NCBI RefSeq assembly: GCF_900142535.1
Contig: NZ_FRBE01000002.1
Location: 186,001-250,000, forward strand
Length of the DNA stretch: 64,000 nt
Reading direction: 5' to 3'
DNA from: Fibrobacter sp. UWEL
GTDB taxonomy: Bacteria > Fibrobacterota > Fibrobacteria > Fibrobacterales > Fibrobacteraceae
Under the pieces are notes generated by a model. The model was not told the origin of the DNA. It did no database searches and was given only the letters and a program-made list of their open reading frames with translations. Of the stretch, positions 6,392 through 61,879 are shown one piece after another. Position 1 is the first letter of the stretch. Each line of letters starts with the position of its first letter. Both the position numbers and the translations under genes were made by a program.

Positions 6392-6397
6392 ACTGAG

Positions 6398-6522
6398 TTA
6401 TGAGTGACGAGTTATGAATGACGAGTTATGAATTATGAGTTATGAATCATGAGTTCGTAATTCATAATTTTTCATTCTTCATCCTTCACCTTTCGTTGTT
6501 AATTGTTAATTGATCTTTGCGA
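6398..6522. repeat. AT-rich composite simple-repeat block
   Basis: Repeated GAGTTATGA/GAATTATGA units are followed by TTCATAATTTTTCATTC and TTGTTAATTGTTAATTG. The same composition, in a different order, recurs at 43020-43187. It contains no plausible gene. Confidence 0.75.
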
Positions 6523-6676
6523 ATTATAGTTTTTTAGGTCGATTCGCGTCGCCTCTTGTTTGCAAAATGGGGTTTTTACAGCTGAAAACACCTTGAATCG
6601 AAAATTGACACTTTTGTGACAATCATTTTTTTTATCTTTCCCATAGAAATAAAAATTAAAATAGGATAATAGTAAT

Positions 6677-19145: not shown

Positions 19146-19250
19146 CTAAAGATAGTAAAATCCTGTATACAGCGTACACAATTGTTAAAAAAAATTATGG
19201 ATAAAAAGTCAATGATTCAAGATTTCAAATAAGAGCGATTGGATTATTGC

Positions 19251-19256
19251 TATATT
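19251..19256 (+). promoter_or_regulatory. -10 element, leaderless-type, tilS
   Basis: TATATT six nt before an in-frame GTG at 19263. This spacing is the main reason for choosing GTG as the start. Confidence 0.5.
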
Positions 19257-19262
19257 CCGACT

Positions 19263-20603
19263 GTGAATTTAAGCAACGTCCTCCCCCACATTGCAAACGC
19301 CATAAAGCAACACCAATGGAGTTCTCTTCTATTGGCGGTTTCGGGAGGTTTGGACTCCATTTGCCTAGCACATTACTTTATCCAAAATAAGTCAACCCTA
19401 GGGATTGACCATCTTGCCATCGTCCACGTTCATCATGGTTTGCGGGAAGGTTCTGCCGACTTGGACGAAAAATCGGTCCGAGATTTCGCAGCAAAATACA
19501 AGGTTCGGTATTTGATGAAAAAGCTGGACGGAACCGCCCTGAAGGAAGCGGGTGGATCCCTGGAGGAAAACGCCCGAAACGCCCGCTATGACGCCCTGAA
19601 AGAATTTGCGAAACAATGTAAGGCCGACGCCATCGTGACGGCGCACCACGCAGGAGACCAAGCAGAAACGGTTTACTTGAGACTCCGTCGCGGTGTTGGC
19701 CTGGCGGGACTTCGAGGAATTCAATCCGTACGAAAATTTCAAAACGAGGGTGACGTGGAATTATTCCGCCCCTTCCTGAAGGTGACCCGCGGGGAGCTGA
19801 AGGATTATGCGGAAGCCAACGGCTTAAGTTGGCGAGAAGACGAAAGTAATTCAGACACCGCCTTCGCTCGCAATAAGATTCGTCACGAAAGCCTCCCCCA
19901 TCTGGAAAGTTTGAATCCGGGAGCAGCCCAGCAGCTCTGTCGTGTAGCAAGCCTTGCGGAAAACGTTTACCGCAAGATCGTTTCAACAAATCACAAGCTT
20001 TTCGAGCCGGCGGAAATACCTCAAGAGCAATGGCCCTTTGAGGCAAAGCACGCCTGTTATCAAAAGGTCCTGGCCCTGAATTTGAACGTTCTCAAGTCAG
20101 TCTTTGAAAGCGGATCCCGAAACGAGTTCGGGACGACAACAAGGGATGTGTTCGGGATGACGGAATTGTTCCGTCTCTGGCTAGGAGAAAAGGGGTTCCG
20201 CATCCCCTTGAAGGAACAGGGAACATCCATTCCCTACCCGTTTTTACAAAGATTGCAGTGTAAGACAATTCTGATGGAAAAGTGCCGCAATATTCTATGG
20301 ATTTGTGACGTTTCTACCAGTTCCTCCGGAAAAAATAATCCCGAGATTTTGTATTTTAACACCGATAAAATTTCTGGCCTGGACGGTCAATGGCGCTATC
20401 GCTCAAAAGGGGATACGCTATGGCCTCACGACGAGAAAATCAAGGCCCGCAAATTGGAACAGTGGCTCCGTGAACAGGGAATTCCCCAGTGGATGTACGA
20501 CAGCCTCCCCCTCTTTGCCAGTGGATCCAGGATTTATTTCGTCGAAGGAATCCGACAAAAGCCAAAAGTTGACGAATTAAAGAGAACAAACGATAAAGGC
20601 TAA
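19263..20603 (+). CDS. tilS: tRNA(Ile)-lysidine synthase
   Basis: Modifies the wobble cytidine of the CAU-anticodon tRNA-Ile to lysidine with ATP. The PP-loop motif VSGGLDS lies near residues 25-31, and [14 protein letters not shown] and [12 protein letters not shown] follow. There is no ATG near the N-terminus; a GTG at 19263 (446 aa) or a TTG at 19239 (454 aa) are the options, and the -10 spacing favours GTG. A dispersed palindromic repeat at 20112-20163 is inserted in frame and adds about 17 residues (near 284-301) between the N-terminal and C-terminal domains. ftsH follows by 26 nt, a common gene order. Confidence 0.93.
20112..20163. repeat. Palindromic repeat inserted in frame in tilS
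   Basis: GGATCCCGAAACGAGTTCGG runs into GACGACAAC and then a second half TTCGGGATGACGG. It resembles the intergenic element at 45271-45298 (GGATCCTCGATCAAGTCGAG then GATGACAAC). The reading frame is kept. Confidence 0.65.
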
Positions 20604-31996: not shown

Positions 31997-32980
31997 TTAA
32001 TCCATTAAACAACGAACTGAATAACCCAGGTTTTTGGGATCCGCATCACCTGTAGTGTAGTCATACCCATAAACAAGTTCTTCGTAGCTAGCATTCGTTT
32101 TCGACCATTCATCAGCCATCCAGAAATGAGCATCATACCCAAGCCGAGAATAAAAAACAGAGTTAACATGTCTGTAACCCGACGGATAGACGGAAAAGCC
32201 ATATGCATTTGTTCCATTGCCATCCGTTCCATTGCTATTGTTGTGCCAATCACTGGTCGTCCGAAGCATTTTACCAGCTGTCAGATACCCACCAACAGAA
32301 CTATGCAGGGCATACCACTCTTCAGAACTAGGCAAGTGCCACCCTTCAGGGCAAACCCCGCGAACGATTCCGTTAGGATTACATTCCACACCGAATCCAC
32401 AACCGCGTCCTGATTCGCTGAATACTGCAGCGCTATCCATCGCCGCGCTCCACAAATACAAGCGACCATATTTAGCACAGTTATCAAGCTCATCATCGTA
32501 GCAGAAACTAGAAGAATCCCATTCAGCAGTTGGCACAACATAAGCATAATTCAGGTTTTCCGCCATCCATACCTGATCACCTATTTTTACACTTTTATAG
32601 ACTTGACCATCTCGTTCATCCGTAAATTCTTCATATTCAATATCAGTATTAAGGTAAGACCAAACAAACTTATCTACGGAAGAAGAACTGCTTGAAGAGG
32701 ATAGCTGATTCTGAGACGAGCTCAGACTGACATTTACGCTGCTGCTGGAAGATGAGCTGCTACTAGATTCCTCGACTCCGGCAGAGCCTACGCTCGGAAT
32801 GACACTTGAGGAGGAGCCGAGAATGACACTTTCGCTGAAGGAGGAACCATCGCTCGAGATGACACTTGAGGAGGAACCGTCGTCCTTTGCGTCGGTTGGT
32901 GAGCCAGTCGAACTATCGTCGCCACATGCAATAAACCCAACGACAAGAGCCATTACAGCCAAATTCTTGAACATATTCAT
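31997..32980 (-). CDS. Lipoprotein with Fibrobacter succinogenes major paralogous domain
   Basis: A 327-aa lipoprotein: signal ending in FIAC, a long linker of SSS/VI/G units (about 25-115), and the paralogous domain (about 120-327) with VYKSVKIGDQVWMAENLNY, CPEGWHLPSSEEW and GYSVRCLMD. The domain is expanded in F. succinogenes and related to formylglycine-enzyme-like folds; its function is unknown. The start at 32980 was chosen because AGGAG lies 7 nt upstream; an in-frame start at 33001 lacks this. Copies of the dispersed repeat lie inside the linker (32763-32812 and fragments to 32880). Confidence 0.85.
   Translation of the reverse strand: MNMFKNLAVMALVVGFIACGDDSSTGSPTDAKDDGSSSSVISSDGSSFSESVILGSSSSVIPSVGSAGVEESSSSSSSSSSVNVSLSSSQNQLSSSSSSSSVDKFVWSYLNTDIEYEEFTDERDGQVYKSVKIGDQVWMAENLNYAYVVPTAEWDSSSFCYDDELDNCAKYGRLYLWSAAMDSAAVFSESGRGCGFGVECNPNGIVRGVCPEGWHLPSSEEWYALHSSVGGYLTAGKMLRTTSDWHNNSNGTDGNGTNAYGFSVYPSGYRHVNSVFYSRLGYDAHFWMADEWSKTNASYEELVYGYDYTTGDADPKNLGYSVRCLMD
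32763..32812. repeat. Dispersed repeat inside a serine-rich coding linker
   Basis: CTAGATTCCTCGACTCCGG and CTACGCTCGGAATGACAC match the dispersed palindromic family, here split by an 11-nt insertion. The partial unit ending ATGACACTTGAGGAGG recurs to the right. Confidence 0.6.
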
Positions 32981-33450: not shown

Positions 33451-33530
33451 AGATCCTTCGACTCCGCGCTTCGCGCTTCGCTCAGGATGACATTCTATCG
33501 TATTTCGCGCTTCGCTCAGGATGACATTCT
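33451..33530. repeat. Double copy of the dispersed palindromic repeat
   Basis: AGATCCTTCGACTCCGCGC, then CGCTTCGCTCAGGATGACAT, then a second CGCTTCGCTCAGGATGACAT. It lies between trmJ and dut and contains no gene. Confidence 0.8.
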
Positions 33531-42679: not shown

Positions 42680-42752
<73 letters not shown>

Positions 42753-42858: not shown

Positions 42859-42931
<73 letters not shown>

Positions 42932-43019: not shown

Positions 43020-43187
43020 TCGCAATTATGAATTACAAATGATTAATTACGAATTATGAATCACGAAAAAGGTCGTACCATCAGCAAAAACCCCGAAAAT
43101 TTCATAATTTATACATCGCATCTCATAACTCATCATTCATCCTTCATTGTTAATTGTTCATTGTTCATTGTTAATTATTAATTGCTC
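43020..43187. repeat. AT-rich composite simple-repeat block (second copy)
   Basis: Units such as AATTATGAAT, TCATAACTCATCATTCATCC and TTGTTAATTGTTCATTG resemble the block at 6398-6522, partly in inverted order. It runs up to the start codon of the Xer recombinase gene, which lacks a visible ribosome binding site. Confidence 0.7.
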
Positions 43188-44129
43188 ATGAGCCTAAATT
43201 CCAACCGTCTTGACGCCTTTCTGGCATACCTTGGAGTGGAGCGAAACCTCTCCCCCATGACCATCCAGAGCTATCAGGAAGACCTGCGACATTTCGTAGG
43301 CTGGCTGGACGAGCAGGCACTGGACTTGAAGGATTTGACTCCGGAAAAATTGGATGAATTCTTGACAGTTGCCGCTGGCAAGGTAACTAGCGGGAACGGC
43401 AAGTCAGAGGGGCGCAGCGACGACCAAATTGAATACGCAGCCACAAGCATCGCAAGGCACTTCTCCAGCCTCCGCGGGTTCCTCAAGTACATGCAGAACC
43501 AGGGTGAGTACGACTTCAGCACCGAAAGCATGCTGGCAACGCCACGCCTTGGGCATTACCTGCCCCAGTACCTCACGCGGGAAGAAGTGGACAGTGTATT
43601 TGAGAGCGCCGCCCACGGCAAGAACCCACTGCGCGACACAGCCCTCTTTGAATTAATGTACAGCGCAGGCCTCCGAATTTCTGAGACATTAGGAATCAAG
43701 CTAGCCCAGCTGGATCTGGACAACGAATGGCTGACACCCATAGGCAAGGGCAACAAGCAGCGTTTGATTCCTCTGGGAAGCAAGGCCAAGGAAAACCTTA
43801 AGGAATGGATTGAGCGTGGTCGCCCCCTCACCCACCCGAGTACAGACAACGTAATTCTAAATTCTCGCGGCAAGCCCATGAGCCGTATGGGTGCCTGGAA
43901 GATTGTGCAGCAACATACCCTGCACCTGACAAAGCAGGTTTCGCCCCATACCTTCCGCCATAGTTTCGCCACCCACTGCCTGGAAGCAGGCATGGACCTT
44001 CGCGTACTGCAGGAACTGCTTGGCCACGCCGACATCAGCACCACCCAGATCTACACCCACGTAGACAAGGAATTTATCAAGCAGGAACACCGCCAATTCC
44101 ATCCTCGAGAACTAGGCGGAAAGAAATAA
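43188..44129 (+). CDS. Tyrosine recombinase, XerC/XerD type
   Basis: Resolves chromosome dimers at dif sites or performs related recombination. The 313-aa protein has the N-terminal SAM-like domain (about 1-95) and the catalytic domain with the Arg in SAGLRISE (near 163), HTFRH (near 255), [15 protein letters not shown] with the His and the tyrosine nucleophile near 289. Length and motifs are those of chromosomal Xer proteins, not phage integrases. I cannot separate XerC from XerD by eye. The ATG at 43188 was preferred to the TTG at 43182. Confidence 0.92.
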
Positions 44130-44159: not shown

Positions 44160-45266
<1,107 letters not shown>

Positions 45267-45270
45267 TGCT

Positions 45271-45298
45271 GGATCCTCGATCAAGTCGAGGATGACAA
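45271..45298. repeat. Dispersed palindromic repeat, GATCCTCGATC variant
   Basis: Perfect stem ATCCTCGA/TCGAGGAT with TCAAG loop, then GACAAC. It lies between the leuB stop and its terminator. Confidence 0.75.
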
Positions 45299-49049: not shown

Positions 49050-49093
49050 TAGATCCTTCGACTACGTGCTACGCACTTCGCTCAGGATGACAA
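49050..49093. repeat. Dispersed palindromic repeat
   Basis: AGATCCTTCGACTACG, GTGCTACG, then CACTTCGCTCAGGATGACA. Lies between purL and its terminator. Confidence 0.75.
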
Positions 49094-53094: not shown

Positions 53095-53133
53095 ACAGCT
53101 AGATTCCTCGACTTCGCTCGGAATGACAGCTGT
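53095..53133. repeat. Dispersed palindromic repeat with flanking inverted hexamers
   Basis: GATTCCTCGACTTCGCTCGG then AATGACA, bounded by ACAGCT and AGCTGT. Lies upstream of purL. Confidence 0.75.
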
Positions 53134-61700: not shown

Positions 61701-61746
61701 GTTTTTGAACAAATTAATACAATTTACCATACCCAGCCCCACAAAG

Positions 61747-61784
61747 CTAGTGCAAAACATCGCCAGCCACCCTTTTCGCACTAG
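61747..61784. repeat. CTAGTGC palindromic element, copy 2
   Basis: CTAGTGCAAAACATCGCC to CCCTTTTCGCACTAG; ends and AAAA/TTTT arms are complementary. 38 nt. Confidence 0.78.
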
Positions 61785-61841
61785 TCCAGCCACTAAATAT
61801 TCCCCAAAACAGGCCTTACTACCACATACAAACTAAAAATC

Positions 61842-61879
61842 CTAGTGTAAAACATCGCTAATCACCCTTTTCGCACTAG
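61842..61879. repeat. CTAGTGC palindromic element, copy 3
   Basis: Same length and layout as copy 2 with only a few differences (CTAGTGTAAAACATCGCT to CCCTTTTCGCACTAG). Confidence 0.78.

Follow-up and report, generated by a model that had tools for sequence, protein, structure and literature searches.

The tilS gene is essential and codes for a tRNA-modifying enzyme, tRNA(Ile)-lysidine synthase. The copy studied here comes from Fibrobacter sp. UWEL and lies in a window of 64,000 nucleotides, the whole stretch of DNA that was analysed (G000:C2:186001-250000, G000 being the genome of the source organism). It is the single TilS match in that genome. Both the PP-loop (PF01171) and TilS_C domains are found in its product and the open reading frame is intact, which rules out a pseudogene. 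Upstream of the in-frame GTG at 19263, the gene begins at a TTG codon. An Rfam scan of the window returned two tRNAs only (Table 1).

A palindromic repeat in frame within tilS

Inside tilS, positions 20113-20161 carry a composite element that is in frame and falls within residues 292-309. An in-frame palindromic repeat had originally been predicted at 20112-20163; the repeat is real, and its limits are now corrected. It consists of a REP unit, a spacer that separates this unit from what follows, and a second 3' half (Table 1). The tag of the REP unit is GACGAC, replacing GATGAC, and the second 3' half terminates in GGGATGAC. Read on the complementary strand, the inner unit gives GTCGT and the outer 3' half gives GTCAT. 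The second 3' half may in part overlap with native codons of the gene (GMTELFRLW in the window TilS, GMDEIFRLW in that of locus L066). RNA folding of the tilS copy gave z values of -0.59 (52 nt) and -1.63 (27 nt), indicating modest and not exceptional stability. AlphaFold modelling of the window TilS places the element between helices 282-292 and 304-317 with a pLDDT of 68-74, compared to 93 in the flanks; it is thus predicted to be a flexible surface loop of lower confidence between the two helices.

Table 1. Coordinates of features in the window (position 1 is the first nucleotide of the stretch)
Feature	Position	Strand	Description
tilS, tRNA(Ile)-lysidine synthase	19239-20603	+	454 codons, TTG start
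REP unit of tilS element, GATCCCGAAACGAGTTCGGGACGAC	20113-20137	+	25 nt; perfect 7-bp inner stem, 5-nt loop
Spacer of tilS element, AACAAGGGATGT	20138-20149	+	12 nt
Second 3' half of tilS element, GTTCGGGATGAC	20150-20161	+	12 nt; 8-bp outer stem with the 5' arm
REP of the same superfamily, GATTCC..GGAATGAC type	32766-32803	+	intergenic
REP, GATCCTTCG..CTCAGGATGAC type	33452-33491	+	intergenic; a second 3' half follows, up to 33525
tRNA gene	42680-42752	-	identical to the next
tRNA gene	42859-42931	-	about 107 nt from the previous
Sister REP	45272-45296	+	intergenic; the gene upstream ends near 45266
REP, GATCCTTCG..CTCAGGATGAC type	49052-49091	+	intergenic
REP, GATTCCTCG..CTCGGAATGAC type	53102-53127	+	intergenic
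Two direct repeats	61725-61879		60 nt each, 77% alike, starts 95 nt apart

An alignment was made of 57 TilS sequences from Fibrobacter and other Fibrobacteraceae (56 loci and the window). Columns 640-649 are occupied in the window TilS only, and in another set of congener TilS sequences none has them as far as listed. The segment is thus missing from all of the other 56. Between the LNL and FRLW motifs the window TilS has 28 residues, compared to 14-19 in L043, L048, L066 and L041. By manual count on the alignments, the window TilS has gained a net 12-14 residues or so relative to most relatives and 9 relative to L041, which may carry a degenerate REP in this position (GAGATGACGAAGG); the 17 residues first proposed were an overestimate. 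These comparisons make an insertion event at 20113 probable. That it was recent is not supported for this copy, the TilS sequences of the nearest congeners being about 55-58% identical.

The repeat family in the genome and genus

Members of the family were sought with the pattern GATYCN{8,36}GRATGAC, the reversed pattern serving as the control. The G000 genome holds 287 matches compared to 11 for the control, a slightly generous control, since more remote genomes of the phylum also give some tens of matches, mostly non-palindromic. With a stem requirement, there were 129 matches in 959 kb of Fibrobacter DNA and a single one in reversed sequence. Congeners hold between 55 and 651 matches to the family pattern each. 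The closest G000 copies that share arms with the tilS element have two mismatches to the fixed arm pattern (for example GATTCCGAAACTAGTTCGGAATGAC), and on the complementary strand the G000 copies take the form GTCAT(C/T)C... Many copies in Fibrobacter have a contiguous outer stem of 5 bp and longer interiors. In a 464-kb sample of G000, 36 raw matches were intergenic versus 20 within genes, several of the latter being chance. Intergenic REPs between co-directed genes are mostly oriented opposite to transcription (43 of 60).

Within the window, further REPs of this kind lie between genes (Table 1). A related element predicted at 45271 is confirmed in the sister REP, which has 9 paired positions, leaves 3 nt unpaired in the fold and gives a z of -3.12.

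An extra 3' half on the same strand follows within 45 nt downstream of 19 of 157 distinct short REPs, and precedes one (loci with this arrangement include L137, L139, L153, L134 and L125). The tilS element has the same REP-plus-3'-half plan and, having outer arms that pair, was not counted among the 157. This polar plan may trace the mode of copying, because among the CGTC REPs described in the available text of Di Nocera, De Gregorio and Rocco (2013; PMC3733652) head-to-head dimers predominate and head-to-tail ones are negligible.

Recurrent inserts in tilS and other genes

Strict REPs are found in 35 of the 57 Fibrobacter and Fibrobacteraceae tilS genes, with 50 copies in 70,497 bp and none in the reversed sequences; 49 of the 50 lie on the coding strand. 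The 820 neighbouring genes, taken from our own gene calls and spanning 776,133 bp, gave 21 matches, of which 7 look like chance and 14 are a single motif in ftsH. The ftsH matches were rejected as REPs, being one conserved codon stretch seen in 14 loci. REP density in tilS is therefore 79-fold that of its neighbours (50/70,497 versus 7/776,133). In a partly overlapping TilS set from other assemblies, REPs occur in 17 of 29 loci, the window's own included, and further tilS stretches from six congeners carry them in 6 of 7 cases, with 19 REPs and up to six per gene. Elsewhere in Fibrobacterota, one of 20 TilS sequences has a match, which looks like coding chance. A REP conserved in distant phyla, which would speak against the original prediction, was not found: strict REPs occur in none of 24 TilS sequences from other phyla or more distant groups. 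From these two outside sets it follows that the hotspot is confined to Fibrobacter, within the sets tested.

Inserts of at least 8 residues concentrate at three sites, being present at site A in 38 of the 57 proteins, at site B in 38, at site C in 12 and at any of them in 45. Most of the strict REPs fall into these three surface loops. In the same AlphaFold model, all three sites join elements of secondary structure: site A follows residue 124 (helix 108-126/strand 131-133), site B lies between strands 164-166 and 174-176, and site C precedes strand 277-281. The insert regions of the L092 TilS have block pLDDT values of 33-73, and some relatives have up to 80 additional residues in one TilS loop. 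Seven insert classes of our own definition were mapped onto a TilS phylogeny inferred from the core columns alone. Site A then requires a minimum of 26 switches of class and 9 switches between presence and absence. Close pairs with differing inserts include L045 versus L097 and L053 versus L063. Close species show filled versus empty tilS loops with boundaries that are not exactly fixable; no target duplication was readable from close tilS pairs, and inspection of such pairs by eye revealed no site-specific target motif. The same tilS loops also hold dispersed repeats other than REPs, namely TCATCAATTATCAATC and CTCGTCTCTCG units, which are found both inside and outside tilS.

Two side observations concern such repeats. 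AT-rich direct repeats at 6395-6527 and 43037-43192 of the window (GTTAATTGTTAATTG, GAGTTATGAATGAC) resemble in style the tilS-loop repeats of other species. A second palindrome-like stretch (GCGCACTAARCAACAAGTTG..) is nested in the loop of a tilS REP at L095:10783-10857 and also in the tilS of L029; no copy of the L095 palindrome was found outside tilS in the scanned loci, a scan that excluded L001-L030 (L029 has one).

Of 93 pairs of inserts from different sites of one tilS gene, 18 have 12-mers in common, compared to 3.8% of 4999 between-gene pairs (permutation mean 5.4, p 0.0005). Moreover, for certain REP variants tilS itself contains a good share of the exact genome copies (2 of 3 in G008, 3 of 5 in G006 and 2 of 4 in G001). 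Because of this sharing and these exact copies, copying among the loops of the same gene is suggested, and repeated hits by a locally frequent variant could also give the pattern. The 49:1 coding-strand bias is unusual because the REPs of hemA and mnmE and most intergenic REPs lie on the opposite strand. An ancestral insertion followed by in-place replacement would account for it.

At the sequence level, the tilS inserts are under frame selection: their 2548 codons contain no in-frame stop, compared to 108 and 164 stops in the other two forward frames, and among the 49 coding-strand REPs the phase in which the TGA of GATGAC would be read as a stop codon is never used.

The window element exemplifies a process that runs through the genus and affects other genes besides tilS. 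In the 464 kb of G000, REPs lie within or between the Pfam domains of a topoisomerase, an aminotransferase, a NirDL-like siroheme decarboxylase, HemA, a CbiX/siroheme-synthase-like protein, an OppD-like ATPase and MnmE, and another lies in the FeoB ORF. In 400 kb of G008, in-gene REPs were found in tilS, an OppD-like ATPase and a CobA-HemD-like fusion. Several further in-gene matches were discounted as insertions, among them one in an antisense ORF (L126:18772-19998), one at a doubtful hemC start and one in a C-terminal extension (L134), and several non-repetitive ones were likewise not counted. Strict REPs occur in 8 of 24 hemA loci, four of them in one loop, and in 5 of 23 mnmE loci, on the opposite strand throughout in both genes. 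After TKDEF.KA, a HemA loop carries different in-frame REPs on the opposite strand in L126:14618-15880, L161, L164, L166 and L177, and a REP near the C-terminus of hemA recurs in L172, L177-L179 and L184. MnmE loop lengths differ between species (L191:892-2394, L192-L214). In OppD-like ATPases of two species (L131:2421-3485, L142:10994-12109), REPs are found at different places of the same domain.

Origin of the inserts and relation to known systems

Mobilisation by a RAYT-type transposase (PF01797, Y1_Tnp) was considered and rejected. A profile search found no such gene in the G000 genome. PF01797 scores above cut-off in 11 of 36 congeners, and REP number does not differ between congeners with and without it (p 0.78). 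Nor do REPs flank RAYT genes, a strict REP being near only one of the 10 Y1_Tnp loci examined.

Our best explanation, in which we have considerable confidence, is that the element is a translated REP copy with a duplicated 3' half in a permissive TilS loop, and one outcome of a continuing process. A CGTC/TGTC-tagged REP with a duplicated 3' half would have come between two helices in the middle region of TilS, where it would be translated as about a dozen added residues of a flexible surface loop and would persist since frame and fold are kept. More generally, REPs and other short dispersed repeats would enter Fibrobacter genes and survive only in frame in permissive loops, the repeats of tilS being continually replaced and copied between the same loops. 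What carries this explanation is the observed family resemblance, the reading frame, the absence from relatives, the loop position in the model, the recurrence across the genus and the frame selection. The inserts would then be nearly neutral for TilS activity, and their turnover would probably proceed by transposase-free copying, such as gene conversion or template switching between hairpins, and not by repeated transposition. A bolder form of the argument, which we offer tentatively and which may well prove wrong, is that the loops of tilS and, less often, of hemA and mnmE are hypervariable landing sites. Hairpins would be inserted there, exchanged for others and copied between loops, all in one fixed orientation and without a transposase, leaving a polar hairpin-plus-3'-half scar, of which 20113-20161 would be one product.

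Alternatively, REP occupancy could itself be selected, the hairpin or the loop tuning the level or activity of TilS, for example where AUA codons are rare. AUA is indeed rare in the G000 sample (2.0 per 1000 codons), and both the extreme recurrence in one gene and an orientation contrary to the intergenic trend would fit such a role. However, a strict REP is missing from 22 of the 57 tilS genes, the type and site of the insert vary freely, the same loops are also filled by repeats other than REPs, and a weaker version of the pattern is seen in HemA and MnmE. This makes selected occupancy improbable. Less credit still is due to the view that the segment is ordinary tilS coding sequence with a chance likeness to the repeat. 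The GMTE that precedes LFRLW in the 3' half does resemble the native GMDE/GMAE of L066 and L041, and the ftsH codons show that unrelated conserved sequence can mimic the pattern. Yet in 2000 codon shuffles of the window tilS, any strict match (stem of at least 5) arose in 21 and an 8-bp stem with these ends, as observed, in none. This result and the comparison with relatives, in which no other TilS of the 57 has the segment and 35 carry strict REPs, lead us to reject chance similarity. The least credible reading is that the insert is removed beforehand by RNA splicing, protein splicing or translational bypass, leaving the protein unchanged; apart from the great length of some loops nothing was found in its support, and it is disfavoured because removal would need no open frame, whereas the insert codons are free of stops.

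Protein-coding palindromes are known mainly from Rickettsia, and the tilS element had been proposed as a case independent of the RPEs found there. It is not an independent kind, because the Fibrobacter elements fit the CGTC-REP superfamily, to which Rickettsia RPE-4 and RPE-6 also belong (PMC3733652). Their tag, the start of their stem, their size and copy number and their largely intergenic location mark them as REPs of this superfamily. With the CGTC REPs, as these are set out in the available text, they share a TGTC/CGTC tag, a stem starting with AT, a size of 20-45 bp, high copy number and a mainly intergenic location with some copies in genes. No transposase has been found for CGTC REPs (PMC3733652), and for RAYT-type genes the Fibrobacter elements may be alike in this. 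That account places CGTC REPs inside genes of several proteobacteria, including repair and tRNA-related genes. Its classic units have a stem of 8-9 bp, a loop of 4-5 nt and a 3-nt tail like CCA, compared to 7 bp and 5 nt in the tilS inner unit. The Fibrobacter elements differ in a wider range of loop and stem lengths than described, in the same-strand extra 3' half and in the recurrent hits in tilS. Fibrobacterota is not among the five phyla listed there, and the available text does not mention tilS, the gene list of Additional file 3 aside (PMC3733652).

RPEs are likewise palindromic repeats in frame in conserved genes and read as additional residues. However, they are long, about 150 bp, with a conserved peptide (reviewed in PMC10969869), while the Fibrobacter elements span 25-50 bp and are read in several frames and from both strands as variable peptides (DP..DD, IP..GMT, CHPE..EGS). 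The RAYT-mobilised GTAG REPs and REPINs are also short tagged hairpins in high copy number, but the Fibrobacter tag is TGTC and not GTAG, and Y1_Tnp is absent from G000. RepRanger (PMC12306157), in its available text, does not mention Fibrobacter. In the literature searched, Additional file 3 of PMC3733652 aside, we found no earlier description of REPs from Fibrobacter or from TilS. What is new is the recurrent, orientation-biased turnover confined to the loops of tilS across the genus, and the polar REP-plus-3'-half plan.

For annotation, these results are a warning that TilS, HemA and MnmE of Fibrobacter contain repeat-derived residues. A genus of gut bacteria in which conserved enzymes contain REPs, with dozens of insert changes in one essential gene, is a comparative system that bears on the spread of CGTC REPs, which have no transposase of their own, and on selfish DNA as a source of new protein loops. 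If the landing-site proposal is true, the spread of REPs without a dedicated transposase would be directly observable inside an essential gene.
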